A DNA stretch of 54,878 nt from a virus: positions 1 through 54,878 of IMG/VR virus record IMGVR_UViG_3300030099_002160; one strand, written 5' to 3'. Shown piece after piece: positions 639 through 25,905 of this stretch. The first letter of the stretch is position 1. The number at the start of each line of letters is the position of its first letter. The translations under genes were made by a program, and so were the position numbers. The notes beneath the pieces are model-generated. The model ran no database searches, was not told the DNA's origin, and was given only the letters and a program-made list of their open reading frames with translations.

Positions 639-648
639 CATAACAACT

Positions 649-4873: not shown

Positions 4874-4880
4874 TGATAAA

Positions 4881-5884: not shown

Positions 5885-5915
5885 TTATTTTTTATTTATT
5901 GTTAATAATTTTTAT

Positions 5916-6103: not shown

Positions 6104-6114
6104 ATTTTTTATTT

Positions 6115-6507: not shown

Positions 6508-6508
6508 G

Positions 6509-6790: not shown

Positions 6791-6792
6791 AA

Positions 6793-7645: not shown

Positions 7646-7848
7646 TATCTTCTCTTTTTCTTTTTCTTTTTACCTCCTTCGCCCCAGTTTCTTACACCAA
7701 CTTTTCTACACTTAGCCATGGCTCCACTTCTATACGCAGAAGTTTTAGGTCCATATCTACGAACCACCTTATAGTAACAAGCATCTTTCTTAGATGTTTT
7801 GCCACCTTTCTTATATTTTTTTACAACTCTTTTATTTACTCGGGTCAT
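7645..7848 (-). CDS. Small basic protein with ACYYKV...KCRKVG.RNWG motif
   Basis: A 67-residue protein. The core ACYYKVVRRYGPKTSAYRSG and MAKCRKVGVRNWG match a motif I know from many marine phage and giant-virus proteins (C.YKVK.RY...PSAYASG.L.KCRK.GA.NWG), where it is usually a short module in structural or basic proteins. Two cysteines are retained (about residues 24 and 47). It ends GGKKKKKKRR. It is tightly coupled (TAATG) to the genes on both sides. The precise role is unknown; a virion- or DNA-associated module is the best guess. Confidence 0.7.
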   Translation of the reverse strand: MTRVNKRVVKKYKKGGKTSKKDACYYKVVRRYGPKTSAYRSGAMAKCRKVGVRNWGEGGKKKKKKRR

Positions 7849-8087
7849 TAGTTTCCAACTTGTTTTTTAGCTGCATTATGAGCTTGAGTAAAAGTCTTTC
7901 CCTGCTTCATAAGCTTAATCATAAGATTCATATGTTTTTTAGTATGATGTTTGCTATGTTTTTTCAGAGTGTCCTTTTGTCTATCAGTTAGACCGTCTGT
8001 TCTTTTAACTAATTTAACTTTAGATCCAGTTCTAGACATTGCTGGTCTTCCGACCTTATTACCGTAAGTTCCTTTTCCGCTTGGCAT
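7848..8087 (-). CDS. Small basic protein (GTYGNKVGRP / HSKHHTKKHM family)
   Basis: A 79-residue protein starting MPSGKGTYGNKVGRPAM and containing GLTDRQKDTLKKHSKHHTKKHM followed by LMIKLMKQGKTFTQAHNAA. The His/Lys-rich helix and the closing FTQAHNAA...VGN are shared with a family I associate with marine phages. It is the first gene of the basic run in transcription order and lies 4 bases from the small membrane protein. The His-rich stretch could bind metal or nucleic acid. No function is established as far as I know. Confidence 0.65.
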   Translation of the reverse strand: MPSGKGTYGNKVGRPAMSRTGSKVKLVKRTDGLTDRQKDTLKKHSKHHTKKHMNLMIKLMKQGKTFTQAHNAAKKQVGN

Positions 8088-8091
8088 ATTT

Positions 8092-8304
8092 TTATTTTTT
8101 AGAGAATTTTTCTACGCCACTTATTCCGAAGCATCCTAAGACAACCCAAACAAAAGAGTCGTATACAAATTCATTTATTACTAGATCTTTACCAATCCAG
8201 CCTGTTACCAGATCAGCGACCATTATTATACACATTATTATAAAAGCTACAAAACCAACTATAGCCTTCTCATTCCAATCATTATTGTCTTTAAATATAT
8301 TCAT
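8092..8304 (-). CDS. Small two-TM holin-like protein
   Basis: A 70-residue protein with two hydrophobic helices (IVGFVAFIIMCIIMVADLV, residues about 15-33, and FVWVVLGCFGISGVEKF, about 50-66) joined by a short polar loop, and a Lys-terminated C-terminus. Size and topology resemble class II holins or phage T7 gp17.5-type proteins. This makes it a second holin candidate beside the 3-TM holin of the rightward operon. It is coupled by TAATG to the EF-hand-like gene. Confidence 0.65.
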   Translation of the reverse strand: MNIFKDNNDWNEKAIVGFVAFIIMCIIMVADLVTGWIGKDLVINEFVYDSFVWVVLGCFGISGVEKFSKK

Positions 8305-8906
8305 TACATTCCACCTCTCATTGGGTCATACATACTGATATCAGGTGCCCCTCTCTTATCCGTTTCATTAACTTTTTTTATAAAATCTTCAAACTCTTCA
8401 CGATATTCTTGTGCGAATTTTTCTAAGAGATCGATGTTTTTTTGTCTTTCCTCTGCATTTTTGTCTCTAGTTTCAACTGTTTCTGCTACTCTACCTGGTA
8501 TTTCCGCTGTTCCTGTCCTTTCTCTTTCTGGCATTTCCGCCCCCTCCTGAGGAATTGTTTTCTTTTTTAATGGCACTCCCCCTTCTTGCATAATTATAAG
8601 AGCATCCATAGTATCATCTTCACGCATTTTAAACTTAGGCATCTTAGATCCCATCTCCATGAATCCAGTTCTCTTCATCATTTCTCCACCCTCTTCCATG
8701 CTATACATTTTGTTTTTACCTCCTTTACCATATTTCATCTTCATTCCTTTTTCAGCTTTTCTAAGCATAGCTAGATCTTGAGCATCGATGTCTCCATCAT
8801 TATCTTTATCCATTTCCCTAGATTGAGCTTTTGATAATCCACCCACTCTATAAGTCATTCTGGGCTTGTTCATTCCTCCGCCCATATATTTTTTTCTCAT
8901 TTTCAT
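8304..8906 (-). CDS. Late protein with an EF-hand-like calcium loop
   Basis: A 200-residue protein rich in Met, Lys and Gly. About residues 33-46 read DKDNDGDIDAQDLA, which fits the D-x-D-x-D-G-x-I-x-x-x-D calcium loop of EF-hand or dockerin modules, flanked by short helices. Three Gly-Gly motifs follow (GKGGK, MEEGGEMM, MQEGGVPL), of a kind also present in the 392- and 766-residue virion candidates. The C-terminal half is acidic and helical (LLEKFAQEYREEFEDFIKKV). It overlaps the secreted-protein gene by 4 bases (ATGA). Probably virion-associated; calcium binding is inferred only from the loop. Confidence 0.65.
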   Translation of the reverse strand: MKMRKKYMGGGMNKPRMTYRVGGLSKAQSREMDKDNDGDIDAQDLAMLRKAEKGMKMKYGKGGKNKMYSMEEGGEMMKRTGFMEMGSKMPKFKMREDDTMDALIIMQEGGVPLKKKTIPQEGAEMPERERTGTAEIPGRVAETVETRDKNAEERQKNIDLLEKFAQEYREEFEDFIKKVNETDKRGAPDISMYDPMRGGM

Positions 8907-9583
8907 TTTGTTAAGTATTTAATTTTACCATTTTCTATATATATGTCTTCAGGCTTTCTTATGACCTGACCTTGTAAATTATATAGTAATCCAGATTTTT
9001 TTGACTCATCTAATATTTCTTCAATACTAGATCCGCAGGGCATTCCTGTTTCACAGTCTACATATTCTGTGCTTACTACTTCAACGTATTCTATTTCAGT
9101 TACTGTGTCTGTCACTATCACATCTACGTATTCAATTACATCAATATACAAAGTATCTAAAACATCTGCGTAAACAGTATCTGTTACATATATATATTGT
9201 GTCTCAACAACAGTTTCGTACTCTATAACAGTCTCATATTCTACTATAGTGTCATACTCTGTTATGTACTCAGTAATATACTCTATTACTGGTATGTCTA
9301 TAAAAACTGTATCACATCCTATCGGTATAGGAGGTAAACAATCTGTAGGTAAAGTTGGACCTTCTGTGTTTTCATCAGCAGCATCTACACAATCTTCCCA
9401 GCTATCATTTATCCAATCAGCTTGAACGCAACCATTTGGAGAATACTGAGTCCAGTTTGATGGATCATCTCCACAGTAAAACCCTCCTTGCTGTGCACAC
9501 TCTAAACACAAAGCTTGAAAATCAAATTGCTGAGAATAACTTAGTGATCCTATAAACGCAAATAAAAATATCAACCTATTCAT
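8903..9583 (-). CDS. Secreted repeat protein with T9SS-like C-terminal tail
   Basis: A 226-residue protein. It has a signal peptide (MNRLIFLFAFIGSLSYSQ), a cysteine-rich N-terminal domain (eight Cys in residues 26-90, with Trp/Asp), a middle stalk of alternating Glu-Tyr/Thr-Val repeats (EYITEYDTIVEYETVIEY and similar, about 98-175), a CETGMPCG loop, and a C-terminal LLYNLQGQVIRKPEDIYIEN... tail. A YNLxGQ.V....IYI.NGK ending is typical of sorting tails for the Type IX secretion system of Bacteroidota. The product may therefore be displayed at or released from the host surface. It lies 3 bases from the outer-membrane barrel gene, pointing to a paired envelope function. Confidence 0.75.
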   Translation of the reverse strand: MNRLIFLFAFIGSLSYSQQFDFQALCLECAQQGGFYCGDDPSNWTQYSPNGCVQADWINDSWEDCVDAADENTEGPTLPTDCLPPIPIGCDTVFIDIPVIEYITEYITEYDTIVEYETVIEYETVVETQYIYVTDTVYADVLDTLYIDVIEYVDVIVTDTVTEIEYVEVVSTEYVDCETGMPCGSSIEEILDESKKSGLLYNLQGQVIRKPEDIYIENGKIKYLTK

Positions 9584-9586
9584 AAC

Positions 9587-10660
9587 CTAAAATATTAAAT
9601 AATTAAAACCAAACTTTACTTCATATACTGGCTTCATCCAGTATCTCATGTGCGTTCCTTCCACAAACATACCTAAGTGTTTAGTTATTCTTGATCCAAG
9701 CACTATGCCAGCATCCCATTCTATATTATCCCATTCTTCGACTCCGTACTCAAAAGAGTATTCGTCAAGACCAAAGTGAAAAGGCATGCAGTTAGCCCAT
9801 AAGTGTATCCACATCTTATCCGTATATTTATAATACGCTAAACCTAACACAGCACTTAACTCTTTTTGTAGTCCAAGTTTGTCCAACTCCTTTTCGTTAT
9901 ATCTAGCAACAGCATCTCCGAAGTAGTGGTTGAAGAACTCATCATTTGAGGTAGCGACTAAAATAGAGTCCCCACCACTAACATCGTACCAATTTTGGTT
10001 CACGTAAAAACCTTGAACCCATTGTTCTGGAGCGTACCCAAAGTCTTGAGCCAACTGTTGAAAAGTGGACTCGCCAGGCACCCAGAAGTCTTCTATGGGG
10101 GTAACACCATAGACAGGATGAATACGAAAAACTCCTCCGATTGTAAAATCCCAGTTTCCTTTGTTTATTCTAATTCTATTATCAAGCGATGCGTATCTTA
10201 AGTTAACTCTCTGATTATCAGTAAACTGAGCCTTAGACACAAACTTGTCACCTAAATACCTTAACCATAATTTTTGATCTACAAACTTCTCGCCCCTACT
10301 TCTTATAAAAGAAAAGTTAAGCAAGTATTCCCATCCCACAGCATTACCAAGTGTAACATTGTCTGCTACAGCCTTTTCTGTTCCGTAATACCAAGTCTTC
10401 ACTTTGTACTCATAATCAAACCTAGCTATCTTTCTAAGACCTACAGTTAAGTTATAATCGTAAGGATGTACAATGGTAACATCTTCATAACCTTTAGACA
10501 CAGCGATATAGTCACCTCTTTCGCTAAAAGGTGTGTTCATTGTCATAGATGTATAAAAGGTAGAGTATTTAAAGAAGTTTCCTTGACCAAAGACGGTTGA
10601 AATGCCGAACACTAAAACCATCATTAGAATATATAGTATGTTAGTTACATCTTTTTTCAT
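9587..10660 (-). CDS. Outer-membrane beta-barrel-like exported protein
   Basis: Taking the ATG at 10660 gives a signal peptide MKKDVTNILYILMMVLVFG...FGQ|GNF, better than the in-frame ATG at 10684, which adds hydrophobic residues ahead of the Lys pair. However, 10684 overlaps the giant-protein stop as TAATG, so it could also be used. The mature part (about 325 residues) is rich in aromatic and alternating residues with short turns (YNLTVGLRKIARFDYEYKV; NLRYASLDNRIRINKG; MWIHLWANCMPFHFGLDEY) and ends with a terminal Phe (KFGFNYLIF), as many outer-membrane barrels do. It is cotranscribed with the giant protein and the secreted protein. A role in surface modification or exit is inferred. Confidence 0.7.
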   Translation of the reverse strand: MKKDVTNILYILMMVLVFGISTVFGQGNFFKYSTFYTSMTMNTPFSERGDYIAVSKGYEDVTIVHPYDYNLTVGLRKIARFDYEYKVKTWYYGTEKAVADNVTLGNAVGWEYLLNFSFIRSRGEKFVDQKLWLRYLGDKFVSKAQFTDNQRVNLRYASLDNRIRINKGNWDFTIGGVFRIHPVYGVTPIEDFWVPGESTFQQLAQDFGYAPEQWVQGFYVNQNWYDVSGGDSILVATSNDEFFNHYFGDAVARYNEKELDKLGLQKELSAVLGLAYYKYTDKMWIHLWANCMPFHFGLDEYSFEYGVEEWDNIEWDAGIVLGSRITKHLGMFVEGTHMRYWMKPVYEVKFGFNYLIF

Positions 10661-10683
10661 TACACAAATATAATTAAAAATCA

Positions 10684-13600
10684 TTAATCTAGAGGTATAT
10701 TAACATCTTTTATCAGATCTTCAAAGAAAAATCCAGTAGCTAGTGGAAGCTTTTTAATAGAGTCTAATTTTTTCTCTTGACCATCTGGCATTCTTAAAAC
10801 ATCTTTATACTCTCTAAAAACTTTTCTAGCATTTTTATAATATCTATTATACTCCTCGTCTTTAGTAATCTCAATACCCATACTATCAAAAGCTCTACCT
10901 ATTGCAACATTAATTTCCCCTGGTTTGTCAGAAGTTTCCTGTAGCAAGACTCTAGTTATAGCTGATCTATTTTTATCGCCATCTCTATATTGTCTAACTA
11001 ATTCGACTATAGTTGGATCTCCTATAGAAGCATAAGTTATATTATTATGATAACCTGTGAGCCACCTCTTCCAATCATTTTTGTCAAAAACATGTGTTTC
11101 TATAAATCCAGGTTCCTTGCTTAACTCTTTTACTGACTTCTTTACAGCTTCAACAACCATCACATTATCTAATGTTTGCATTATTTCAGGTAGGGTTTTA
11201 TCTCTATATTCTTCCCTAAGCTCACCATTGTCATCTAATGGTAATGTGAAAATATTACCCTCTTTATCTACGTAAGTTTTGTTTTGGCTATCGTATGTTA
11301 CACCCATATCTTTAGCAACTTGTCTAAAATATTGATCAAACACATAATTCACGTTTGCATTTTCATTAACTAAAGTCTTAGTATTTTCAACTAATGGATC
11401 TACATCTCTCTCTGTTAGATCAACCTTACCTATAAATCTATCTTTAGCTGGTCCAAAGAAGTCTTCAGTAAATTCAATAAAAGCTTTGTCTGTTTCTATC
11501 TTGTCCGCATCAGGTCTAAGTACATTGCCGCCTACAGTATATACATTATTAAATGTTTGATACCAAGGATTTCTATCAAGATTAGTAAATACAGATCCCA
11601 GTCCCTCTTTTAAGTTTTGAGTGTTAGCAAGGGGATCAACAACATTTCTAACCATTCTACCGTCACCAAGAAAATCACTAGCATAGTCAAATGTTGTTGC
11701 TAAAGCTTTTATCAACTGATCCTCTTCTGAGCTTAAATTTCTCATTCTTAAAGGACCTATCACATTTGGATCCCCCCTCCAAACTTGTTCTTCTCTCCAA
11801 AGATCATAGTTTTTGTATATTTTATAAAAGGCTGATATACCTGGATTCGAAGCTAAGACACCCTCGGTTGGAATAGGCATAGACTTTTTAAACATGTCTA
11901 AATAATCCTTTCTGGTATTTGCAGATGGTCTTCCAGTTATGTTTTGATAAGCCAAGTCCTGAGCAGGAAGTTTAATAAAATCTAATGAAAGATCAGTAGG
12001 CAGTTTTAAATAAGAAGGATTAGTCACTGTATTTTGTCTCCTTTCCTTTTCTAAAGCTCTGATTCTCTCAGACAACTCAATAGTGGGATTTTCAAGATAT
12101 TCTAACCTCATATTTTCAATAGCAATTTTGAGATTTTGTTCTTTTTCAGGATCTAAATAATCATGCCCCGACCAAGGAAGCATAACAACAGTGTGATTTT
12201 TCTTATCATACTCACTAACTTTGTCATAAAGATATTCAGTGTTTTCTTTGTCTTGCCTTAGTAAATCTTCTTCTTGCTCTCTTAACTTTATCAAATCATT
12301 TATTATCTCAGCGTCTGTTGTGTTTCCTGAAGTTATAGCTTTGTCATACATTTTTTCAAGCTTCTTAACACTTCTAATATTATTAAATTTATTTTGATTT
12401 TGATCCATGAAGTTTTTATCCAACTCCTTATCTATTCTTTCTTTTTCGTCTTCATCACGATATAGTCTAAACGCTGCTGATAAAGAGAATGCTGTTGCTG
12501 CATAAAATATAAATTGAGACTGTGCAAGATCCCAAAAGAACTGAGCTTTATTTTTCTTAGCGTACTTTAAACGAGAATACATAACTTGAAGACCTGCGTT
12601 TAGATAAGCAAAACCTGCTTTTTTATCAAGAGACTTTATTTCATTACCACCCCCATTAAAGTTAGCGTAATCAACAGCATTTCCTACAGCCAACCTTACA
12701 ATTTCTTTGTACTCTTCTTCATTAGGATCTCTACCATTTTCTTTTTTAAACTTCTTTATATAGGTGGATTTCCATCTTTGCGTATTAGCTAACCTACCCA
12801 TTAACTCACTCCATTGATTTAAAGAACCGAAATATTCCATTGTTTTTCTAAGAGCATTAACTTTATTTGGATCTGAAAATGGCTGATCGTCAGGGTCTAA
12901 AACTATTTGACCGCTCAAAGATGCTTGATTAGCAGCCTCTACAGCTTGATTATACGTTAATCCCTGTTCTTTTTGTAATTTATCTATATACTGCTCTAAA
13001 GGATCTTTGTAGGCTTTTACGTTTCCATTTTCTGAGTTTATACCTTGAGTGTTAAAAAAATCAAGATTACCTCCACCAAGCATATATTCATCAACCAAAG
13101 GTGTGGGAACATCCGTCCCCTTAGCTAGCCTACCTCTGACATTTAAAACATGAGAAAAAGCTTCACTAGAAACACTCGCCCAATCAACAACAGCATTAAA
13201 ATATTTTAGAGGTAAAAATAATCTGTTCCAAAAATTGTAATTATAACTGTCACTAAACTGAACTTGTTGAGTCATATCTAATCTAGCATTATTCAAGAAA
13301 AAGAATATTCCTAAATTTCCAGTAGCAAAAGTTTTTAAGTAATTAGCCAGCGTAGCATTAAATCTAAGAGCAGCACCCACTCCTGGAACTGTTAATAGAC
13401 TGTCAATATTTTGACTCAAACCAGGTCTGTTAAATAAGGATTGATACGCCTCTTCTGTCAACGCCATTTTTTTAACATCTCCATTTATACGAACAGGGAC
13501 TAAGTAGTATTGATTTGTAGCACCATTTATACTATTAGTATACTCAGGAACATAAGGTCTATCTTTAGTAACTGTGTATCCAACAACTTCACTAACAGGT

Positions 13601-16600
13601 ATAGGATTGTTTTCGTATTCTCCAAAGATACGTCTAGCTAAACCAAACCTCTTAGGATTTGTTTCTGATTGAGCCTTTTCAATTATACTTATAGTATTGT
13701 ATATACTATTTATAGCTTCATTAGTGGCTAGAATACTAAATGTAGATCCTATATTACCTTCTAATAGTTTTACTGGATCTGTAAACAATACTTCATCACT
13801 ACCAAGACCTATCTCTTTTAGTGGGTTAGCTACGTTGTGCACTTTAACGGTGCCAGGCATTTTTATATTTATAACATTGTCTTCCGATATAACAGAGTGA
13901 TGTATAAATCTTCTTGGAATATAATCTAGATCTTTTAGATTTGCGTAAGTAATATTGTCTATCAACCCTCCTTCCCACTTTCTCTTTAACAAATCTTTAT
14001 GTACTGAAAATACTTCATCGGCTTTTTTATTCAAAAATTCAAAGTCGGGCTTTGTTTTTTTACTGTCTAGTATAGCCTGTGCGGTTTCTTTAGATAATAC
14101 TTCACCCGTTCTTGGCTGTCCGTCTAAACTTAGCTTAGGATGAAGAAGTCTCCAAGGATTTATATTTAAATCACCCTCTATGTTTTTCATTTCTAATCCA
14201 GGGGGTACTTCTACCTCCATAAATCCATCTTTGACATACTCACCATTTTCTACTAATACTAATTTATATTCTGAAGGTCTGAATCCAAAATCTGATTTTT
14301 CAAAAACTAAATCCATCTTTACTCTTTTGTCTTTGATCTTTCCATCTTCTCCCTTTTCTGAGAATGGATATAAATTTTTAGCTTGTGTTACCAAAATTCT
14401 TATATCTCTTTCTGTTTGTCTGATCTGCCTAGTAATATCTTTACTTTCTTCAGTAGGAGGACCCATAATTCCTTTTGCCTCGTCCCTAGAATCTTTTAAA
14501 GTATTTATATCTTCATATTTTTGATTTATCTCTTTTATCACCTCATCTAAAACCAACTTTCTTCTATCAAACTCATCATCCAAAACTATAACTCTTCTAA
14601 GTAACATTATTGTACCCAGCTCTCTAATTTGATCGTTAGACATCTTGTAAAATATAGGATTAGAAAACTTATCAGCATAATGTCTAGCAGTTCCAGGAGA
14701 GTTGTTCCACCTTATTAATGACATTAGGTTGTCCATAGCTTGAGGCTCTAAGTCATATTTTCTAGCTGCTAATTCTAAGCTTTTTCTAATAAAATATCTA
14801 GAGTCAACCGACCCCTCCATAAGTTTAGATCTTAAACTTCCCACTTGACCAGCTTTGAATTTCGCAACTGCTTGTTGAGCCTGACTCAAAAAGTACGTAA
14901 AGATAGCGTTAGTAGATTTGTTTCTATAGCTGTTATCAATATTAGATTCTAATACTTTATCAAGTTTGTTTACTTCTTCGCTTGTATAACCATCTGGTTT
15001 TGAGGAGTTTATAGAAGGCACAGATTGTTGATCTAACAAAGTTTCTTTTTCATCAAGTTCTTTTTGCTCCTCTTCTGTTAGTGCAGATTCTTCCGTAACT
15101 TCAACATCACCTATGGACGTTTTTGGATTTTGTTCGTGAAGATGGTAGTCATCAAATATTTCATTCTTAAAAAATTCTTTTATAGAAAACTCTAGTTCAG
15201 AAGTGTGCTGTCCTGTGTCTTTTAAATATTTTATAGCCCTATCTATAGCATGACCAACATTAGCTGTTGTTCTAAGACTGATAGAAGCTAACTTAATAGC
15301 TGTCATAAAAGCCTGTCTAAATCCAAAGTCTGAATAAAGATGACCTTCTTTAAGCATGCTATTGTACAGTGCATCTAGTTTTTCTGCTAGTGTAATTAGC
15401 TTCTGAAATCTCGGAACGCTTCTAGCATCTTCTCCATGTCTTTTTCTGACATCCGAGATGTCTTCGGCTGCGAAACCAAGATCAAGCGTTGATTGTCTTC
15501 TGGTAAGTTCGGATCTGAGATCTGTGTCGAAGGATTTGTCTTTTTCTTTAATTGTTTTATATTCTCCATTTGTAAATACTTTAGTGTTAACGTAATTTTT
15601 TTCGAAATAATTAATTTTTATATTGTTGTTTTCAAGTTTTTCTCTAACAGATTCTGCATCTTGATCAAACTTATTTTGTGAGTTTATCCAGTTTTCTTCT
15701 CCTATAATATCATCTATATTATTGAAAGACTTAGTATTCATAGCATACTCTGGTACAAGCTGAAACTCTACTCCTACTATCTGCTTTTGCTGATTATAGT
15801 TAAATGAATATCCAGATATATCAGAAGTATTTAAAGCGTTTACTAAGAACTCTTTATCAGTGTCAGTTAGGGGTGAGTCAAACTCTATTCTTCTATACGG
15901 TCTTGCGTTGGGATGATCTTGACTTGTTGTCCTAGAAACAAACACAGATGTCTGACCGTTGTAGTAACCTATGTCCATAGCTTGATTTACAATAACAGAT
16001 ATATCGGCACCCTTAGGTATAACAGCTTCTGTAGTAATGTTTGGTTCAGCTTGATTATTATATACCCCTTCAGTAATCTCTACTCTTGACATCAAAGGAT
16101 TTAAAGATCTTATAGCTTCTTCCATGTTCTTTTTAGCTTGATCAAATCTAACAGACCCCTTCAAAGTTTGCATAGATATTTGTATAAGCTCTTCATCCGT
16201 AGCTCCTCTTTCTATGGCTGGATACAATTTATTATACACATTAGCCATGTGCATCTCTTTATCTTGACCTATAAAAGCACTAGCTCCAACAGAAAGTCTT
16301 TCTACTGTGCCATTAGCTTTTATCTTAGAGTCCATAGTAGTAAGTTTCTCTATGTTTCTAAAACCCATAGTGTCCCACAGAGTCTGTTCATACTGCCATA
16401 TTATAGCTTGAACGTCTTCTATCTCTATATTATCAACTCCAAACAGTGAACTCAGGTCTCTGGTAGAAGTAAGATCTCTAAGAACATCTTGCATAAATTT
16501 AAAGTCTGGATCAGAAACCCCACGCTCTTGTGGTTGTCTACGTCTCCAGTATACTGGACCTGTAGGTTGTGAACCAGTTTGTTTATAGGCTGAGTCATAC

Positions 16601-19600
16601 AATGCCCTTCTACCAAATCTACCCATCCAAACATCTATAGTCGCATTGTGATCTCTTTGAGATAAGTTGTTGTAAAATTGAGCTGTCTTTAGAGCAGGCT
16701 TGCTTAACATCTCTGGAGTCCCTGTTTTGTCAGCAAACTCAAATCCTATCCAGTTACCGTATAGAACTCTTATGATGGCTCCGTTAACAGCTCCAAAAGA
16801 AGTTGGTCTACCATTAGATCCTAAAACATTTCTAGCCTTTTCTATTTCTTCTACTATTCTAGCATCATTAGAAGCACTTATCATTTTATTTTGAGCATTT
16901 ATCAGAGTCATACCACCCAGTTCATACTCTTTCAGAATGTAGTTTACGCTTTCATCATATATCTCAAGAGCTTTGTTTAGCTTGCCCTGTGAGTATAATC
17001 TTAGAGCTTCATCAGTTTTTTGTACGTTAACTTCTGGTGTCACCTGTGCAGAGCTAGCTCCAAGTAGTTCAAAATACATATTAGCAAAAGGACCAAACTT
17101 TTCTTGAACAATCTCTCTAGTATTTCTATACCATCCAACAGAATCATTCATAAAGTCATTTAAGTTCATACCAGATTGACTAACTACAGCGGGTAAATTT
17201 TGTAACTCACTAAATATAACATTAGAAGTAAATTTAACCTTTTGTTGATATTGCTGTTCTGAAGTTAATGTTCTATCTATATTTTGATTAAATATAGGTG
17301 CATCTAGTAATTCAAAACCAAAGTCTTTAAAAGCAACTTTACCACCCTTGGTAAATTTAGGGTATCCAGCTTGATTTAATACTATTTCCTCTGGCTGTAG
17401 CTGCTTGTCTGGATTATTTTCGTTATATGTATTAGAGTCTTCTACTTTCTTTAATGCTGATTGATACTTCTTTAACCTAGATCCTGAATACATATTTTCA
17501 TAAGTCTTAGGATTCTTAGATCTTTTTATCATTTTATGCAACTCAGTAACATCTTCAACTCTAAACTGCTTAGGATATTTTTTCTCCATAGCACTTATAA
17601 ACTTCTTTTTGTTACCTTTTACTAGCTCGTATTCTTTTACTGACTTATTGTATATATTACTTTGACCCCATAGGAAATAATTTTTAAGATCTGTTTTACT
17701 TATCCTTGATCCATCAGGCATCTTAAGTTTGCTTACAGCATCATTTACAGCTTTGGAAAAACCTTTACCTAATTTAAGACCAGATCTTATAGATCTAAGC
17801 AAAGCCTCAGCTAAAGCAATCCAGTTGTCTTTGGTGCCTAGCCCCATTAATATATCTGACTTGATAGTATTGTCTCTGTTTCTAGCTAGCCATTCTAATC
17901 TTTCATCTATCCATTTTAGCATAGAATCAATAGCTTCAGTAGAGTTATTAGGCTCAAAAGGATCCTTGATTGAAGATTGATTAGCGGATCTAGCAGAACC
18001 CAACAAGTCCATGAGTTTACCCGCTTCAGTAGACGAGAAAGACTTTCTACCAAGAGCTTCAGCAAAAGAAGTAAATGTTGTAGTGTTTTTGTCCAGCAAA
18101 GACACAAGGTTTTGATATGCTTCGTTTTTGGTTCTACCCATAGTTATACCTGTCCTTGTTTCTACAAAAGCAGGCTCTCCAGGTTTTTTTGTCAACTCTA
18201 TGTTTAGATTGTTTATAATACCTTTATATGTCTTGGTTCTGTAATCGTAAGAAAACATTTTATTGACAGTTTTAGGCATACCTTTTATGTCACGCATCCA
18301 GTCCTGGACAGGTGTAAAAGTTTTCAATAGGTCAACAGGGTCAGAAACATTTAATCCTCCATCTTCTACTTCTAGAGCCATAACCTCAGATATATTATAT
18401 ATAGTAGGCTCTTTTACTAAGGCGTTTACTATTACGCTTTGTTGTTCTGTTAAGGAAACTTCTATAGGCTTGCCTTCTAGCGAGTTAGCTGCTGCCTCTA
18501 ATACTATAGTGCTTTCTACATCTGGATACCTTGACTTTACCTTTTCAGTTATATTTCTAAATATATTTGTAGGCAAATCATTATTATAGAATAAATCATA
18601 GTTTGTTTTTATGTTAAGATCTTGGTAGAACTTATCTAAAGCATCAGCATAGTTTCTAGAGTCTGTTTTGTCTGGAAACAAATCTTTCTTTTCTTTCCTG
18701 TTATATTCTGCTTCTTCTTCTACATCTGAGTCAAACCTATCTTTTAGCTCGTCTAGCTGATCTTTAGTAAAATTAAAAGTGTTATTAACAAAGTTATTAA
18801 CAGAATCCCAGTCTCCTGATTTTACTCCTGCGTAGTACACCTTATACAAGTCCTCAGTGTTTGCCATTCTAAGATACAACTCATCTTTACTGTATTGATC
18901 TATAGATTCTTTTACAGGTCTACTAAGTGATTCTTTGATTAATTTATCAGCGGCATTTATATCTTTCTTTTCTTGTTCGTTAGCTTCTAACGCTGTCAGT
19001 CCATAGTCTGTTCCATCCTTGTCTGTTCTAATCATCATGGTATTCTGAAACTTTTCATCAATTTGTTTTTCAAGATCCAGATCATCATCTATTCTCAAGT
19101 TTATAGAACCGTTTTTTATTTTCTGTATAAAGGTAGGATCGTTAATCAAACTCTCCATAGCTCTTTTAGTAACATCTTTACCATTTACACTATATCTACC
19201 AGAAGGTGCGTTTAATAATTTTAAAGCATCTGGAGTCCCTTCTTTTGCTGTTTGATAGTCACTGTCAAGTAATGCCTTTACCTCTTCTCCAAAAGCTGAG
19301 TTTTTATACTGTTCAACAGACTCTAAGTATTTTGTTATAGCAGTGTAGTCTACGTCAGATAAATCTATGTTACCATCGTTATAGTCCTGTATCATCTGTT
19401 CTAGCTGTGCGTCTATACCTCTAGCTGTTGCAAGAGTAAACGCAGATGACATACCATAACACATAATAGCAGTGGTAATTAATTTATTTATTTTTTCATC
19501 TTTAGTTTCACCTATAGTTTTTGCAAAAGCCTTTTTGTAGTCAAAACCCATTTTGTCTAGGTTGTCTGTAAACTCACCAGCATATTCAGCAAATAGTTCA

Positions 19601-22548
19601 GCAGTACCACCGACACCCACTCTAGTACCTACTACACCTAATGCAAGACCACCCTTACCAACCTTTTCATATACAGACATAAGTGCTTTAGTATATTTAT
19701 TAGACTTAACCATCTGCTTAAACATGTTCTGAACAAAACCTTCAGCAGCACCCATTCTCCAATTTACAACATCTCCAGACGTAGCTTCAAATGCAGCGGC
19801 ACCTGTAATCATGTCCTTAGCCATGTCAAATACAAAAGCCCCAACAGGTGTTGATGTGGCTGCATTCTCTAGTTTTGCAAACTTAGGTATCTTTGATAAA
19901 GATGTTATACCAGCTCTAGCCAATGGGTATGTCAACAAAAGTTCACCCATAATATAAAATGTAGATCCAGCACCTTGACCCAACATATCTGTAAGATCAG
20001 TTTCTCCAGCTTTACTTTGTAGTTCGGTAACAGGAATGTTTTTTTGTCTAGCTATATTAGCGTAATTGTTTTGAACATCGTTATCGGTAAAAATAGGAGA
20101 CTTAGTAAAAGATTCTTTGAATGACTCACCAATTTGACTAAGTAATCTAGAGTTTTTTATAGAGCCTTTTCTATTGTTCCAAGCTTTACCAGGATCTACA
20201 TTATAAGCTAATACATTTTCTACAGCCATCAAAGATGTTATGTTATTGTTATATTTACCTCTGAAGTTTACAAGGTAGTTTAACATAGCTTTAACATCTT
20301 CCTTTGAGCTACCTTTTAACGGTCCTATAATGTTTTTTATGATAGCACCCTGAAAGTTATTATCTAACTGTCTAAGTTTATTAAAAGCACCTATAGCGAT
20401 ACCTTCATCCTCTAATGATCTGTCTAAATACTCTTGTTGCATAGGTGTGCCAGCGTAAGGACCAGATCTAACTTTTTCTCTTAAACCTGCATCAAACAGA
20501 AAGTCTCTCATCTCGCTCAAAGTCATTTTAGCACCACTAGGTAGAGTCATTTTGTTATTAGCAAAAACATCTTCCATAAGTTGTTTCTGAGCGTAAAAGT
20601 CGTTACTCTGCTCGGTAAGCATACTAGCTATCGTGCCCTCATCATATCCAGTGTCATACAGTTTAAGATATTCTTTTTCTTTTAGACTTACACCTTGACC
20701 TATTTCTTTTAATCCTGGATCTACAGCTGCACCAGACTCATCAAATAAAGCTTCATCTTTTGTTCTTTTTTCTAGTCTTAGCTGTTCAATTCTAGAGTCT
20801 ATATCAGAGAGTGTGGTTGTTAGATTTGATAATCTTTTAGCGTCATCGCCTGTTTGCTCACCTTCACTAAGCTCTTGTATCTGTGATCTTATTTGATTTC
20901 TTCTATCAACAAGACCTTTTATCTTAAAGTAACTATTTTCTGTATAATCATCAACAGAAGCAACTGAGCCTATTAGTGTTATTTGATCGTTTATAGTAAA
21001 CAGTGTAGATACTACTTTTGTTTTTTGATCGTCATATCTATCCTGCATAGAGTTTAATCCTGTGATGTAAGCTTCATTACCAAGCATATCCTCCTTACTA
21101 GAAAACTTACCATTTTCTTTTATGAAGTCTGTTGTATAGTTATTTAGCTTTGTATTTATTTTGTAAGGATCTAACAACTCATTATTTGCAGCTCTTCTAG
21201 GAGTTTCTAAATCTACATCTCTATATATGTTTTCATTAGGATCAACTAAGTTTTTATATAAATCATCTGGTGTAAACACTAAGTCTACCTGTGTATCTTT
21301 TAATTTTAAATTAGAAGTTTTTGGATGATTAACAAAGTATCTAGCAGAAGTAGAACTAGCATTATCTAATATATTTTTGTATAAGTTTTCCTTGTGTAAG
21401 TTATACACTTCTAATACCTTTTGATTATCAAGATATTTATTTTGGTTTTCAGTAGACAAGTCATCAATACTACCTTCAGCTAGTAATTCTTTTTGTTGTT
21501 TCTCTAGTCTACTTATTTCCGCATTCATATTCATGTAAGACTCAAACTGAGCTAGTCCTTTAGAATTAACAGGTAGTGACCCATCATCCTCTATCTCATC
21601 GCTCATCAAATCTTTTAACATGCTTACACCACTTTTTCTTAGTGGTTTTAATATTTTACCTACCGTAGTTTTAGCTTGATTTGGATAGATACCTATTTTG
21701 TTTTTAGGTATCATAAATATATCATCATCTGAGTTGTTGTCGTACAATCTCATTATGTTCTTACCTCTGTCAGATATTTTTAAAGAGTTGTCAAACTCTA
21801 TATCAACAGATTCAGCTGGCTCAAAGAAATTACCTGGCTTAGTGATTACTTTAGCATTTGTCTTAGTAGGACTTTCAGGATCCTCATCCTCTAATAAATA
21901 ATCAAAGTTTGCGTTTGGTGCCTTAGAGTAAAGATCTAGAGACTTAAATACAGATGTTGTGTCCTTTGGGTTTTCGTAATATTTTTTAAAGTCAGTATCG
22001 TCTTTTATTTTGTTAAGATTATTTTTAACCTCTTCACTTTTTCGTGACTTGTTTAGGTTTTTAATATCTATTTCTTCTTGATACTTTAGTTTTAAAGACT
22101 CTTTGATAGCTTGCGGCACTAGATCTTCGAATACTATAACACCATCCTTGGAGTAGTTACCACCTATGGGGTCGTAGTCCCACACGTCTTGATCACTATC
22201 ATCAAGTGGACCAATGGGTCTTGTATCTACAGAAGCTCCTTCCTGTGCCTTAAACGGTTTTTTTGTTGCCGACTGCCCCGATTCTCCAGTTGCCGATCCT
22301 AATAAACCATTTGCCGAATCTTTTTTTTTTAACCCATACCTGTTTTTGATTTGATTCATTTGATCTTTAGTAGGGTGTTTACCTACTAATCCTGAGTACA
22401 TGCCCATGATCATATTGTCATAGTCACCATCAAAATTCATTAATATTGAATCAATCTGGTATTGGTTTGGAGTTTTCTTGGTTAATTGCTTGTAAAAGTC
22501 TTTTATAAACTTTACAGCTCTTTTATCATTTTGATAAACTATTGCCAT
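10684..22548 (-). CDS. Giant polyvalent virion-type protein (3954 residues)
   Basis: A single uninterrupted frame of 3954 codons, roughly 440 kDa, one fifth of the window. N-terminus (1-75): a helical module with NFDGDYDNMIMGMYSGL and a RYGLKKKD end. Next come a KAQEGASVD linker, a long charged helical region, and a Gly/Ala-rich hydrophobic region (about 855-1035, GELLLTYPLARAG ... MCYGMSSAFTLATARG). About residues 1930-2055 contain TIDVWMGRFG and later QAIIWQYEQ, a pattern I recall from large phage polyproteins (DUF7178-like). About 2876 reads YIPRRFIHHSV. About 3075-3365 reads TGNLGIFFFLNNARLD, AYLNAGLQVMYSRL and FYAATAFSLSAAF, resembling the LPD38-type domain of large polyvalent proteins. 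The position, after the nozzle and internal proteins, is that of proteins ejected with the DNA. No polymerase or transglycosylase motif was found. Confidence 0.85.
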   Translation of the reverse strand: MAIVYQNDKRAVKFIKDFYKQLTKKTPNQYQIDSILMNFDGDYDNMIMGMYSGLVGKHPTKDQMNQIKNRYGLKKKDSANGLLGSATGESGQSATKKPFKAQEGASVDTRPIGPLDDSDQDVWDYDPIGGNYSKDGVIVFEDLVPQAIKESLKLKYQEEIDIKNLNKSRKSEEVKNNLNKIKDDTDFKKYYENPKDTTSVFKSLDLYSKAPNANFDYLLEDEDPESPTKTNAKVITKPGNFFEPAESVDIEFDNSLKISDRGKNIMRLYDNNSDDDIFMIPKNKIGIYPNQAKTTVGKILKPLRKSGVSMLKDLMSDEIEDDGSLPVNSKGLAQFESYMNMNAEISRLEKQQKELLAEGSIDDLSTENQNKYLDNQKVLEVYNLHKENLYKNILDNASSTSARYFVNHPKTSNLKLKDTQVDLVFTPDDLYKNLVDPNENIYRDVDLETPRRAANNELLDPYKINTKLNNYTTDFIKENGKFSSKEDMLGNEAYITGLNSMQDRYDDQKTKVVSTLFTINDQITLIGSVASVDDYTENSYFKIKGLVDRRNQIRSQIQELSEGEQTGDDAKRLSNLTTTLSDIDSRIEQLRLEKRTKDEALFDESGAAVDPGLKEIGQGVSLKEKEYLKLYDTGYDEGTIASMLTEQSNDFYAQKQLMEDVFANNKMTLPSGAKMTLSEMRDFLFDAGLREKVRSGPYAGTPMQQEYLDRSLEDEGIAIGAFNKLRQLDNNFQGAIIKNIIGPLKGSSKEDVKAMLNYLVNFRGKYNNNITSLMAVENVLAYNVDPGKAWNNRKGSIKNSRLLSQIGESFKESFTKSPIFTDNDVQNNYANIARQKNIPVTELQSKAGETDLTDMLGQGAGSTFYIMGELLLTYPLARAGITSLSKIPKFAKLENAATSTPVGAFVFDMAKDMITGAAAFEATSGDVVNWRMGAAEGFVQNMFKQMVKSNKYTKALMSVYEKVGKGGLALGVVGTRVGVGGTAELFAEYAGEFTDNLDKMGFDYKKAFAKTIGETKDEKINKLITTAIMCYGMSSAFTLATARGIDAQLEQMIQDYNDGNIDLSDVDYTAITKYLESVEQYKNSAFGEEVKALLDSDYQTAKEGTPDALKLLNAPSGRYSVNGKDVTKRAMESLINDPTFIQKIKNGSINLRIDDDLDLEKQIDEKFQNTMMIRTDKDGTDYGLTALEANEQEKKDINAADKLIKESLSRPVKESIDQYSKDELYLRMANTEDLYKVYYAGVKSGDWDSVNNFVNNTFNFTKDQLDELKDRFDSDVEEEAEYNRKEKKDLFPDKTDSRNYADALDKFYQDLNIKTNYDLFYNNDLPTNIFRNITEKVKSRYPDVESTIVLEAAANSLEGKPIEVSLTEQQSVIVNALVKEPTIYNISEVMALEVEDGGLNVSDPVDLLKTFTPVQDWMRDIKGMPKTVNKMFSYDYRTKTYKGIINNLNIELTKKPGEPAFVETRTGITMGRTKNEAYQNLVSLLDKNTTTFTSFAEALGRKSFSSTEAGKLMDLLGSARSANQSSIKDPFEPNNSTEAIDSMLKWIDERLEWLARNRDNTIKSDILMGLGTKDNWIALAEALLRSIRSGLKLGKGFSKAVNDAVSKLKMPDGSRISKTDLKNYFLWGQSNIYNKSVKEYELVKGNKKKFISAMEKKYPKQFRVEDVTELHKMIKRSKNPKTYENMYSGSRLKKYQSALKKVEDSNTYNENNPDKQLQPEEIVLNQAGYPKFTKGGKVAFKDFGFELLDAPIFNQNIDRTLTSEQQYQQKVKFTSNVIFSELQNLPAVVSQSGMNLNDFMNDSVGWYRNTREIVQEKFGPFANMYFELLGASSAQVTPEVNVQKTDEALRLYSQGKLNKALEIYDESVNYILKEYELGGMTLINAQNKMISASNDARIVEEIEKARNVLGSNGRPTSFGAVNGAIIRVLYGNWIGFEFADKTGTPEMLSKPALKTAQFYNNLSQRDHNATIDVWMGRFGRRALYDSAYKQTGSQPTGPVYWRRRQPQERGVSDPDFKFMQDVLRDLTSTRDLSSLFGVDNIEIEDVQAIIWQYEQTLWDTMGFRNIEKLTTMDSKIKANGTVERLSVGASAFIGQDKEMHMANVYNKLYPAIERGATDEELIQISMQTLKGSVRFDQAKKNMEEAIRSLNPLMSRVEITEGVYNNQAEPNITTEAVIPKGADISVIVNQAMDIGYYNGQTSVFVSRTTSQDHPNARPYRRIEFDSPLTDTDKEFLVNALNTSDISGYSFNYNQQKQIVGVEFQLVPEYAMNTKSFNNIDDIIGEENWINSQNKFDQDAESVREKLENNNIKINYFEKNYVNTKVFTNGEYKTIKEKDKSFDTDLRSELTRRQSTLDLGFAAEDISDVRKRHGEDARSVPRFQKLITLAEKLDALYNSMLKEGHLYSDFGFRQAFMTAIKLASISLRTTANVGHAIDRAIKYLKDTGQHTSELEFSIKEFFKNEIFDDYHLHEQNPKTSIGDVEVTEESALTEEEQKELDEKETLLDQQSVPSINSSKPDGYTSEEVNKLDKVLESNIDNSYRNKSTNAIFTYFLSQAQQAVAKFKAGQVGSLRSKLMEGSVDSRYFIRKSLELAARKYDLEPQAMDNLMSLIRWNNSPGTARHYADKFSNPIFYKMSNDQIRELGTIMLLRRVIVLDDEFDRRKLVLDEVIKEINQKYEDINTLKDSRDEAKGIMGPPTEESKDITRQIRQTERDIRILVTQAKNLYPFSEKGEDGKIKDKRVKMDLVFEKSDFGFRPSEYKLVLVENGEYVKDGFMEVEVPPGLEMKNIEGDLNINPWRLLHPKLSLDGQPRTGEVLSKETAQAILDSKKTKPDFEFLNKKADEVFSVHKDLLKRKWEGGLIDNITYANLKDLDYIPRRFIHHSVISEDNVINIKMPGTVKVHNVANPLKEIGLGSDEVLFTDPVKLLEGNIGSTFSILATNEAINSIYNTISIIEKAQSETNPKRFGLARRIFGEYENNPIPVSEVVGYTVTKDRPYVPEYTNSINGATNQYYLVPVRINGDVKKMALTEEAYQSLFNRPGLSQNIDSLLTVPGVGAALRFNATLANYLKTFATGNLGIFFFLNNARLDMTQQVQFSDSYNYNFWNRLFLPLKYFNAVVDWASVSSEAFSHVLNVRGRLAKGTDVPTPLVDEYMLGGGNLDFFNTQGINSENGNVKAYKDPLEQYIDKLQKEQGLTYNQAVEAANQASLSGQIVLDPDDQPFSDPNKVNALRKTMEYFGSLNQWSELMGRLANTQRWKSTYIKKFKKENGRDPNEEEYKEIVRLAVGNAVDYANFNGGGNEIKSLDKKAGFAYLNAGLQVMYSRLKYAKKNKAQFFWDLAQSQFIFYAATAFSLSAAFRLYRDEDEKERIDKELDKNFMDQNQNKFNNIRSVKKLEKMYDKAITSGNTTDAEIINDLIKLREQEEDLLRQDKENTEYLYDKVSEYDKKNHTVVMLPWSGHDYLDPEKEQNLKIAIENMRLEYLENPTIELSERIRALEKERRQNTVTNPSYLKLPTDLSLDFIKLPAQDLAYQNITGRPSANTRKDYLDMFKKSMPIPTEGVLASNPGISAFYKIYKNYDLWREEQVWRGDPNVIGPLRMRNLSSEEDQLIKALATTFDYASDFLGDGRMVRNVVDPLANTQNLKEGLGSVFTNLDRNPWYQTFNNVYTVGGNVLRPDADKIETDKAFIEFTEDFFGPAKDRFIGKVDLTERDVDPLVENTKTLVNENANVNYVFDQYFRQVAKDMGVTYDSQNKTYVDKEGNIFTLPLDDNGELREEYRDKTLPEIMQTLDNVMVVEAVKKSVKELSKEPGFIETHVFDKNDWKRWLTGYHNNITYASIGDPTIVELVRQYRDGDKNRSAITRVLLQETSDKPGEINVAIGRAFDSMGIEITKDEEYNRYYKNARKVFREYKDVLRMPDGQEKKLDSIKKLPLATGFFFEDLIKDVNIPLD

Positions 22549-22574: not shown

Positions 22575-24725
22575 TTATCCTACGTTACCACCAAAGGTAA
22601 AGTCAAATACTGCGTCAGAAGTAATTTCATCACCCTTTTTTCTTTTAGTTCCACTTTCATCTAAGTAAAATATTCCAGTTTCATTAAGTCCTTCTATATA
22701 ATCTATATAATTTTTATAATCTTCATCAGTAGAAACTCTATTGTTTAGTGGGAAGAACATGTCTGCATTTCTAACAGTGTTTAATATAATGTCCATATCT
22801 TGAGCGTCCAAAGGTTGACCATTTATAATTATTTTACCATCTGGTCTTATGTCAGCCTCAATATTTTCTTTAAGTTTATCTTCATCTCTAGGTGTAAACT
22901 TACCAAACAAAGCAGGTATAATGATAGCATTATCAGCCTGTTCTTGACTGTCAAACACAAAGCTTGATCTACTGTTCTGCATATCCTCTGGTCTTCCTTG
23001 ATAAGCATCTGTATCATACTTAATAATTTCACCTGTTCTTTTATCTACAGCTATAGCTACAATAGCACCAGCATTTACTTTTCCAGAAACACCATTTAAG
23101 AGATCTCTGCTAAACTCTTCACCGCTAAACACAAAGCCAACATCATCTTTATTTCTTAACAATCTTTCATTACCAACATTAACAAAGTTATGAGTTCCAA
23201 ATGTAACATCTTGACCTTTTAATTGATCTCTACTTTCTAGTCTAAACTCTTGAATACCAACTGTGTTGCCTAATATTGAAGATCTACTACCCTTATTTTC
23301 ATTCCATTTAAATGTAGCTGGCACAGTACCTTGAGGAGCTGAACCCTGATCAAACTGAGCGTAACCAGTCATAAAGTCATTAAGAATCATTTCTGCTACT
23401 ACGTCTCTAGCATTTTCTATTCTCTGTCCCTTTTTCTCACCCCACTGATATTCTACATTATAATCACTAAACAGTTCACTATTTGACAATTTACCCAAAT
23501 CTCCATCTCCTTCTTTTACCATCTGTAAAAACACTCGAGTAAAACCTTCAGGCATCTGACCATTAGGATTAGCATCTCTATACATTCTTTCAGCAGCTTC
23601 CAATACAGCCCTGTTCATTACTCTATCTGTAAAAGAGTTTATTTCTTCGCCAAATGTTGCTTGTGTCACAGCTTGTTGTCTTAAATCAGATACTGCCTGA
23701 TTAGTCAAGTATTTATTAGGACTTATTTCGTTTGGTTGATCTAAAATATTACTGTAACTTAATTTATCTGCAAAATGAGATATGCCAAGTAGCTGTGTAG
23801 CTTGCTTACTTAGTTTTGCCTTATCAAATTTGCCCAGACTAAAGTAGTCGAAAAAATTTTCACCACCGTATTGAGGCACGTTTTTATCAGTAAAAGAAAA
23901 TTTGGTAGGATCCACCACCTCGTCCATTAAATCTTGATAAGCATATCTTATGGTGCCATCTTCATTTCTTAATGCCACTGGTTCTACACGTCCCCTACCA
24001 CCTTCTATACCTCCTCTATTCTTAAAAGCTCTAATTGGATTTCCATCCACGTCTACCATTACCTCTTCTCCTGTAGCTTCATCTTTAACAAAAACATATT
24101 GTTTGTTTTCTTCTGTACTACCCTCTGCTAGAGCGGCTTCTTGGTAGTAATCTTTATTACCACTATCGTGACCATACCACATGTAGCTTAGGTCTTGATA
24201 AGTTTGACCCTCTTTTAAATTAGCATCTAACATTGATTTGGTTAAAGGCACATCTATAGTTTTTAAGTTACTAAGATCATATACGGGCAGACCGTATTCA
24301 TCTACCTCAATAACCATAGCGTGGAACTCATTCATGTTCTTAACATAAGCCTGAGTGTGTAGTCCTATCTTATTTATTTCTATATCTCTAGTGTCACTGG
24401 CTGCACCTTTTATGGGGTCATATTCTCCAAAGTAGTTATCATCAGGAGTGTTTTTATCATATAACTCATTAACATTTTCTTTGTTATAAACATACTGAGC
24501 CTCTATAAGAGTGTTGTATAAGTCATTGAATTTTGCGTCAGCGTTTTCTTCTATATTAGGAGTCTTAAACGGAGAGTTCTTCATTTCTTTCTCACTCGGC
24601 TTTTTATCCTGAGCATACCTCTTCTTCATTAGAGCAAGTTTTTCCTTCTCTATGTCATTCAACTTAAAATTAGGTATCTGAAAACCGTCAGTTTTTACAA
24701 AAGCACCTCCTCCGTATAATCCCAT
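22575..24725 (-). CDS. Putative internal virion (cargo) protein
   Basis: A 716-residue, mildly acidic protein opening MGLYGGGAFVKTDGF, mostly mixed alpha/beta without membrane segments. YFGEYDPIKG (about residue 97) resembles YDPIGG near the start of the giant protein, and a GKIIINGQPLDAQDMDIIL block lies near residue 635. It is sandwiched between the 392-residue Gly-Gly-motif protein and the giant protein, 1 base and 26 bases away, the place where T7- and crAss-like phages encode ejected proteins. No enzymatic motif is visible. The role as virion cargo is inferred from position. Confidence 0.6.
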   Translation of the reverse strand: MGLYGGGAFVKTDGFQIPNFKLNDIEKEKLALMKKRYAQDKKPSEKEMKNSPFKTPNIEENADAKFNDLYNTLIEAQYVYNKENVNELYDKNTPDDNYFGEYDPIKGAASDTRDIEINKIGLHTQAYVKNMNEFHAMVIEVDEYGLPVYDLSNLKTIDVPLTKSMLDANLKEGQTYQDLSYMWYGHDSGNKDYYQEAALAEGSTEENKQYVFVKDEATGEEVMVDVDGNPIRAFKNRGGIEGGRGRVEPVALRNEDGTIRYAYQDLMDEVVDPTKFSFTDKNVPQYGGENFFDYFSLGKFDKAKLSKQATQLLGISHFADKLSYSNILDQPNEISPNKYLTNQAVSDLRQQAVTQATFGEEINSFTDRVMNRAVLEAAERMYRDANPNGQMPEGFTRVFLQMVKEGDGDLGKLSNSELFSDYNVEYQWGEKKGQRIENARDVVAEMILNDFMTGYAQFDQGSAPQGTVPATFKWNENKGSRSSILGNTVGIQEFRLESRDQLKGQDVTFGTHNFVNVGNERLLRNKDDVGFVFSGEEFSRDLLNGVSGKVNAGAIVAIAVDKRTGEIIKYDTDAYQGRPEDMQNSRSSFVFDSQEQADNAIIIPALFGKFTPRDEDKLKENIEADIRPDGKIIINGQPLDAQDMDIILNTVRNADMFFPLNNRVSTDEDYKNYIDYIEGLNETGIFYLDESGTKRKKGDEITSDAVFDFTFGGNVG

Positions 24726-24726: not shown

Positions 24727-25905
24727 TTAGTATGTCATTTTAGATTTAGGCTTGTAAACCCTAGAGCCTTTTTTAGCTTTCATAGATTCTTTGCCCATCA
24801 TTTTTTCTTTATGTTCTTTAGCTTTTTGTTCATATTTAACAAATAGTCCTTTTAGCTTATTAAAAACACCTTTAGCATCATTATTAGCTATTAGAGATTC
24901 AAACTCTTCTACATCGTCTGGAGGCATTATAATCTCTCCACCTGTCATCTCTCCTATCTTTTCATCTTTACCACTAGGTCTTTTTTGTACTAAGTCTATA
25001 GGGTTCTCTTTGTGAGAAAACTTACCTGGAGATATATCTGGCTCACCAGCCTTTATCATATCCGAGTCACCCCCTTCTTCATAGTTCTTCATGTTAGCCC
25101 CTTCTTCCATGTTAGGAACTTTTGATCCCTCTTCACTCAAAGGAGTTAGAACATCTGCTGCTGCTGTCATTAGACCACTCACTACATCACCATAGGCTTC
25201 AGCTTGTTGTCCAAATAGATTTACCTGAGCTTCTAATATATCTCCTTGAACCGTTCCATATGCCTCTGTTAAGTCTCCAAAAACACCAGCTTCTCCTTGA
25301 AACTGAGCTATACCAGCTTGAGTGTCTTGTGCCGAGCCAGCAGTGGTAGCACCTACTATTTGTTGTAAAGCTGTCATGTCTTGTTTTGACTGAAGTGCTT
25401 TATCTTTCTGCTCTATCTGAGCTCCCACCTGTTGAGTCTTTAACGCTCCTGTGTCAGCAGCATCTAAAACACCTTTTAGACCACCCGTTCTACCAGTTCT
25501 ACTAAGAGCCTGCACACCAGTTCCAGCTAATCTTTCTTGCATGTCTGTACGATCCTCAACAAACTCCGTAGACGTGGGCTTTATAGGCTTTAACATACCA
25601 GGTATTTTACCAGGTAAATCCTGAAGTTCAGCTGAAGCTCCTGGAGGAGATGTCACGTTGGTATTAAAAGCGTCCATACCTGTCTGAAGTATTCCCTCTT
25701 CTCCACTCAAACTTATTTCACCTTGAAGATCTTCAAGTTTACCTTCTAAAATTTCAGCACTAAGAAGATTACCTACAGGATTACCTATAACATTTAGAAA
25801 AGACGCTAAATTAAAATAATTATCATCACCACTTTTCATCTTTTTGCCCTTATAAGACTTACCTCCCATTCTGTAATTAGGTGTATATGTTTTTTTCTTT
25901 TTCAT
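24727..25905 (-). CDS. Virion-associated protein with Gly-Gly motifs
   Basis: A 392-residue protein. It has a basic N-terminus with YRMGGKSYKGKK, an Ala/Gln-rich helical middle (QVGAQIEQKDKALQSKQDM; GIAQFQGEAG), a NYEEGGDSDM motif, then PGKFSHKENPIDLV...GEMTGGEIIMPPDD, and a helical Lys-rich end. The block G-K-F-S-H-x-x-N-P-I followed by x-x-T-G-G-E-x-I-x-x-x is familiar from internal or collar proteins of Bacteroidota podoviruses, where it precedes an L-I-x-x-x-D helix, here EFESLIANNDAKGVFNKL. It directly follows the nozzle gene. Likely an internal head or neck protein; the exact role is unknown. Confidence 0.65.
   Translation of the reverse strand: MKKKKTYTPNYRMGGKSYKGKKMKSGDDNYFNLASFLNVIGNPVGNLLSAEILEGKLEDLQGEISLSGEEGILQTGMDAFNTNVTSPPGASAELQDLPGKIPGMLKPIKPTSTEFVEDRTDMQERLAGTGVQALSRTGRTGGLKGVLDAADTGALKTQQVGAQIEQKDKALQSKQDMTALQQIVGATTAGSAQDTQAGIAQFQGEAGVFGDLTEAYGTVQGDILEAQVNLFGQQAEAYGDVVSGLMTAAADVLTPLSEEGSKVPNMEEGANMKNYEEGGDSDMIKAGEPDISPGKFSHKENPIDLVQKRPSGKDEKIGEMTGGEIIMPPDDVEEFESLIANNDAKGVFNKLKGLFVKYEQKAKEHKEKMMGKESMKAKKGSRVYKPKSKMTY

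Follow-up and report, generated by a model that had tools for sequence, protein, structure and literature searches.

What does a phage do with a protein of 3,954 residues that belongs to no known family? The stretch of DNA analyzed here (the window) comprises all 54,878 bases of a virus record, which may be only part of the genome, and positions 10684 to 22548 hold, on the minus strand, a single uninterrupted open reading frame (ORF) that begins with an ATG at 22548 and whose stop codon ends at 10684. A preliminary description of this DNA had located the 3,954-residue protein correctly and named no strand. Many stop codons interrupt the plus strand of the same interval and, at the GC content of 34.4%, a run of 3,954 codons free of stops would arise by chance with a computed probability of about 10^-129; the ORF is real. 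No Pfam or NCBIfam family matched its product (hereafter the giant), the sole match in PHROGs had an E-value of 0.037, and a sequence search against solved structures gave no meaningful E-value. Patterns made from the giant alone found no matches among viral contigs, and direct BLAST comparison with named phages retrieved only Maribacter phage Panino, over 24% of one half. None of these searches produced a full-length match to a characterized protein.

Relatives and gene neighborhood

Based on the terminase gene (40671-42719), whose product shows 42% identity to that of a Manatee Spring podovirus, 39% to those of Flavobacterium elemoviruses, 37% to that of Panino, and 35% and 31% to those of Cellulophaga phages phi19:3 and phi38:1, the phage, a marine bacterial virus, is a relative of the Flavobacterium, Cellulophaga and Maribacter podoviruses; the terminase is more distantly related to those of gut crAss-like phages. 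It is probably a short-tailed phage of Bacteroidota, and podoviral virions are described for Gundel and Calle, two members of the same wider group (PMC8776804). Besides the terminase, genes of the window matched P22-type portal, SU10-type capsid, GroES, primase/helicase, HNH, holin and thioredoxin families. The minus strand reads terminase, portal, capsid, other structural genes and a 1,623-aa protein with a PHROG match to "virion structural protein", followed by three adjacent genes for proteins of 392 aa (24727-25905), 716 aa (22575-24725) and 3,954 aa. The gene of the giant is therefore the last of the structural block, next to late and virion genes as is typical of polyvalent-type proteins. 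The preliminary description gave no gene context and so missed this ejection-type cassette of three genes, which lies after the tail genes.

Relatives were obtained from IMG/VR via the terminase and their giants were then compared with that of the window. Full-length giants of close relatives measure 3,644-3,902 aa, and homologs reach 4,343 aa. The nearest one (L105) shows 38-41% identity and is incomplete at its contig end; those of L098, L099 and L100 (about 30%), L103 (25%) and L101, as well as a broken copy in L104, also align over most of the chain, whereas L102 and Panino carry more distant, partial homologs. Since close relatives align over most of its length, the giant is, by these alignments, not an orphan. 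The L104 copy lies in two pieces, 1-5520 and 5610-10841 (1,840 and 1,744 aa), which may reflect a sequencing error or a real break.

Elemovirus gp18 (3,694 aa), phi38:1 gp101 and phi19:3 gp129 occupy the same position as the last gene of the structural block in phages with related terminases, and are annotated, as deposited, as structural or virion structural proteins. Each is preceded by a protein of 450-550 aa, with one small gene between the two in phi19:3. In Gundel_1, the giant deposited as structural, Gundel1_74, sits before the terminase instead. Sequence homology was not detectable between the body of the window giant and those of any of these four proteins, so the "structural" label carries over by position only. 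Our literature search found no virion proteomics for this phage, and a 2026 Cellulophaga paper does not mention gp101.

Three genes beyond the giant on the same strand deserve a brief description. A 365-aa protein directly after it (9587-10684) has a signal peptide-like start, a beta-barrel-like sequence and a C-terminal Phe, and shows 83-94% identity in the nearest relatives; it would be a phage-encoded outer membrane-type protein, possibly for superinfection exclusion. Adjoining this gene, a conserved 226-aa protein (8903-9583; 48-96% identity) combines a signal peptide-like start, several Cys residues and an unusual run of EYITEYDTIVEYETV-like repeats. Farther downstream, a 130-aa thioredoxin-like protein (6115-6507) also has a signal peptide-like start.

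Module organization of the giant

The N-terminal module (residues 1-79; 22312-22548, minus strand) ends in LKKKD. An HMM of this segment finds L107, a positional counterpart from a related IMG/VR phage, at 5e-13, though the body of the L107 protein is mostly unlike the window giant; comparable KKK-ending N-terminal stretches occur in L106, L005, L102, L109 and L008. The module contains the string FDGDYD, which the preliminary description had placed properly (residues 39-44) and had called DGD-like. The string is FDGNYH in L105 and YKGDNE in L103 and lies within the LKKKD-ending module, and is therefore no relic of a DxDGD motif. Other DxDxD-type strings are found only at residues 117 and 1154. 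The T7-type motif B (R-x3-K-x6-8-Y-G/A) and HEXXH are absent from the giant, in line with the earlier statement that no polymerase motif could be placed, whereas the same patterns find both in the N4 virion RNA polymerase gp50, at residue 1663 and as HELVH at 2228. Neither a family HMM nor blastp gave anything significant between the giant and gp50.

Residues 850-1045 (19414-20001, minus strand) form a Gly/Ala-rich segment that is highly conserved in close relatives. Four of its stretches are mildly hydrophobic (hydropathy 1.0-1.3) and suggest a possible membrane contact. Farther along the chain, BLAST block boundaries and the sequences themselves delimit a domain swap: in place of residues 1164-1431 (18256-19059, minus strand), the giants of L098-L101 and L103 carry an HDxxGH domain, FRAVHDFFGHTELGNGFG..GEENAW..HS.MFS..ARRAMTTETRGQNSWVNF, which is also present in the giants L148 and L180. 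A PDB profile search with this domain returned nothing beyond designed helical proteins. Many of its residues are invariant (H, H, E) in these seven giants, in a manner reminiscent of iron-binding 2-His-1-carboxylate sites; class II giants have the domain and the window giant lacks it.

The most widely shared part is a module at residues 1640-2470 (15139-17631, minus strand), which is common to many giant phage proteins. A search of viral contigs with this region gave 395 loci, the best 80 of which were taken on, and an HMM of residues 1790-2130 matched about 70 further ORFs. Their lengths range from 789 to 5,180 aa, the majority are giant, and the position of the module along the chain varies. 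Within it, an all-helical core at residues 1800-2072 (16333-17151, minus strand) is of DUF7178 type. The preliminary description had noted a DUF7178-like part and was right to do so: the direct match to the Pfam family (PF23802) is weak and under the cut-off (13.9 bits, E-value 0.001), but homologs exceed the cut-off at the place aligned to this core, and the motif KT..F..NL...ATIDVW with its following helices is common to both. The conserved unit differs from the Pfam family in extending over some 270 residues, after which an alpha/beta domain follows (residues 2153-2329; 15562-16092, minus strand). This domain is weakly ferredoxin-like in the secondary structure of the model, and its PDB matches are weak only. 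The L105 giant has an insertion of about 130 aa (approximately residues 2081-2213) inside the DUF7178-type module, near residue 1995 of the window giant, which lacks it.

An alignment of 70 sequences, of which the effective number is lower because some are near-duplicates, has 19 invariant columns, all of them kept in the window giant: W1806, Y1807, S1833, G1855, K1954, F1958, N1961, the run A1969-T-I-D-V-W1974, R1977, E2008, Q2047, A2048, W2051 and E2054. AlphaFold2 models of the whole module (831 aa; pLDDT 84.8, pTM 0.81) and of the core (273 aa; pLDDT 83.9, pTM 0.80) were confident, and neither had a Foldseek match in the PDB at E ≤ 0.001. Against viral models the 831-aa model gave 19 matches at that threshold, among which the informative names were InPase, RelA/SpoT and large-polyvalent-domain proteins. 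When 18 giants with the module were scanned at 1e-4, DUF7178 was found in 12, ART-PolyVal in four, and LPD38, Kinase-PolyVal, Radical SAM and GNAT in one each. The module is thus widespread in polyvalent-type proteins, and we found no solved relative of its fold. Matches of the 831-residue model to phage SAM lyase (E-value 0.19) and to an ACT/SerB-type fold were too weak to name it, and matches of the modules to profiles of designed TPR and four-helix proteins in the PDB, mostly covering 20-40 residues, were attributed to helix bias. Two compact copies of the module (L121 and L142) had no match among named phages, and no mention of DUF7178 was found in the literature searched.

Because a mobile module keeps 19 invariant residues across 70 phage sequences, residues 1800-2072 look like an active or binding site; if the protein hides a catalytic core, they are the best candidate for it. 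Invariance alone is no proof of catalysis, since a binding or structural role would appear identical. The earlier statement that the protein has no recognized catalytic core is correct in that no known enzyme domain was found, and too strong in view of this conserved set.

The C-terminal module (residues 2600-3670; 11539-14751, minus strand) is shared with L102, Panino and L136-L138. The curated LPD38 profile (PF18857) has no match in the window; Panino and the L136 and L137 records gave sub-threshold matches, which align to residues 3360-3650 approximately. The LPD38-like part of the preliminary description is thus retained as a putative assignment made through intermediates, and not as a match in the window itself. 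The same profile did not match N4, which is uninformative.

A proposed role in ejection

The ORF, its homologs and modules, the gene order, the conserved residues, the domain swap and the pattern of divergence are observed; a location in the virion, ejection, catalysis and the kind of substrate are what we infer. We consider it likely that the 392-, 716- and 3,954-aa proteins form an ejection-type set that is stored in the virion and ejected into the host, with the giant as its third and largest member; the giant would then be a polyvalent-type ejection protein that is modular and evolves fast. In phage N4, gp52, gp51 and gp50 are ejected, gp51 and gp52 are proposed to form a channel, and gp50 passes through it as beads on a string (PMC12633501). 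The N4 genes run in one direction in the order gp53 (tail plug), gp52 (150 aa), gp51 (644 aa) and gp50 (3,500 aa), with the giant last. The window resembles this Schitoviridae trio in its adjacent, co-directional small, medium and giant genes, again with the giant last, and in the multi-domain nature and size class of the giant, a similarity in size that had been pointed out before; the 716- and 392-aa proteins were compared with gp51 and gp52 by size and order alone. It differs in that the giant has no RNA polymerase, HEXXH motif or sequence similarity to gp50, carries its DUF7178-type module in mid-chain, and belongs to another phage lineage.

By analogy with the N4 trio, the giant would probably be stored in the phage head as loosely linked domains. 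The 392- and 716-aa proteins would build a trans-envelope channel, and the giant, threaded through the tail and this channel, would arrive in the cell together with the DNA or before it and then refold. Residues 850-1045 may touch a membrane on the way, and residues 1640-2470 and the C-terminal modules would do their work in the cytoplasm of the host. Of the whole chain, residues 1800-2072, with their fixed constellation of polar residues, are most likely the working part. The envelope step is supported by giants at the same position in two related IMG/VR phages (L106 and L107), because both contain an M15 peptidase domain, and the cytoplasmic step by the presence of ART-PolyVal, also found in L106, and similar domains in relatives, whose giants include GH-E-like domains as well.

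Phage polyvalent proteins lie near late genes, and LPD38 is a phage-only domain among them (Iyer et al. 2017; PMC5512222). The giant is similar to these proteins as a multi-module chain in a late/structural block with a putative LPD38-type C-terminus, and its relatives carry ART-PolyVal, peptidase and nuclease-like domains. It differs from them in that no known polyvalent enzyme domain was found in it, nor the MPTase motif (HEXXH). Giant ejected proteins and polyvalent proteins are thus a known kind. Three points are new: these giants form a lineage lacking a named enzyme, the DUF7178-type module in its extended form combines a set of invariant residues with a fold that found no match in the PDB, and the three genes diverge in the manner of alleles. 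Among giant ejected proteins, that of N4 has been studied best, and its cargo is an RNA polymerase; here the same three-gene layout appears with a putative cargo of another kind, within which the 270-residue module is the part to focus on. Dozens of giant phage proteins conserve this module and no solved relative was found, so that one structure or assay would be informative for many phages.

The location of the gene in the structural block, the structural labels of its positional homologs and the composition of the protein, which is helical and has one Cys in 3,954 aa, would also suit a purely structural internal scaffold, tape measure-like, that occupies the head or core and has no activity inside the cell, its invariant residues only stabilizing the fold or binding DNA. 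We think this improbable: a passive scaffold fits poorly with 19 invariant residues in a module that moves among differently built giants, some of which contain ART, kinase or GNAT domains, and poorly with the swap of whole domains.

Residues 1800-2072 might be a diverged HhH-GPD DNA glycosylase/AP lyase, with K1954 as nucleophile and D1972 as acid, whose early substrate in the infected cell would be the DNA of host or phage; the remainder would serve as delivery machinery. The catalytic Lys/Asp pair of Escherichia coli endonuclease III has an 18-residue spacing. K1954 and D1972, invariant in the 70 sequences, are likewise 18 residues apart, a spacing that alone is not diagnostic, and both are predicted to sit at helix starts in the model. 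However, the HhH-GPD profile matched none of 14 records and all of 14 control genomes, hhalign against Nth/MutY relatives gave a probability of 0.2 in a different register, and the 50 PDB fold matches listed for each model included no glycosylase. With profile, profile-profile and fold tests all negative, we rejected the assignment and keep it as a weak rival that is very unlikely to be correct. A link between DUF7178 and endonuclease III through the control genomes was also discarded: the match in two Escherichia genomes is a 391-aa ORF and not nth.

A virion RNA polymerase for early genes, either of N4 type or crAss-like with a DxDxD core and in a degenerate or strongly diverged form, would agree with the size class and gene position of the giant and with the absence of an RNA polymerase family among those listed (25 of 41) for 53 other ORFs of the window, but it is largely refuted and hardly credible given the absence of motif B and HEXXH, both detected in gp50 by the same patterns, the few DxDxD-type strings, the one at residue 40 not being conserved in the nearest relatives, and searches of Pfam, PHROGs, NCBIfam and the PDB that yielded no RNA polymerase family.

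Divergence of the three genes

Identities computed gene by gene against three IMG/VR relatives (G001-G003) set the proposed ejection proteins apart from other genes. The primase (90-94%), the outer membrane-like protein (83-88%) and the terminase (87-88%) are well conserved, and the capsid (74%) and the 1,623-aa protein (57-58%) are intermediate, whereas the 392-aa protein shows 33-35%, the 716-aa protein 23-25% and the giant 29-31%. Over the related phages as a whole, the trio shows 23-40% (33-40% for the 392-aa protein and 23-28% for the hypervariable 716-aa protein) as opposed to 83-94% for the primase, the terminase and the outer membrane-like protein encoded next to the giant. When G001-G003 are compared with one another, the trio reaches 61-83%, whereas the primase (91-95%) and the outer membrane-like protein (87-93%) are hardly closer within these three phages than to the window phage. 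The trio of a further relative, G013, is nearer to the class of the window (44% for the giant) and its giant also lacks the HDxxGH domain. The trio thus falls into two allele classes, set apart by the domain swap at residues 1164-1431. Since a step in the same direction, though smaller, is seen in the portal, capsid and terminase, the history of the trio suggested by these comparisons is likely a mixture of descent and cassette exchange.

The contrast in identity between the trio on one side and the terminase, the primase and the outer membrane-like protein on the other offers a direct way to test whether ejection proteins adapt to specific hosts. We tentatively put forward, as a possibility that is less probable than ejection itself, that residues 1800-2072 have an enzyme fold new to the PDB, a shared active core delivered into bacteria by the giant ejected proteins of many unrelated phages, and that, in this lineage, phages that are otherwise similar swap the whole trio as a cassette, in step with differences in host or defense.

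The trio is the longest variable block in the window; other variable genes are those at 8304-8906, 35108-35542, 45939-47633 and 48787-51087. The last of these lies on the opposite (plus) strand and encodes a hypervariable protein of 766 aa, with 25-36% identity over partial length.
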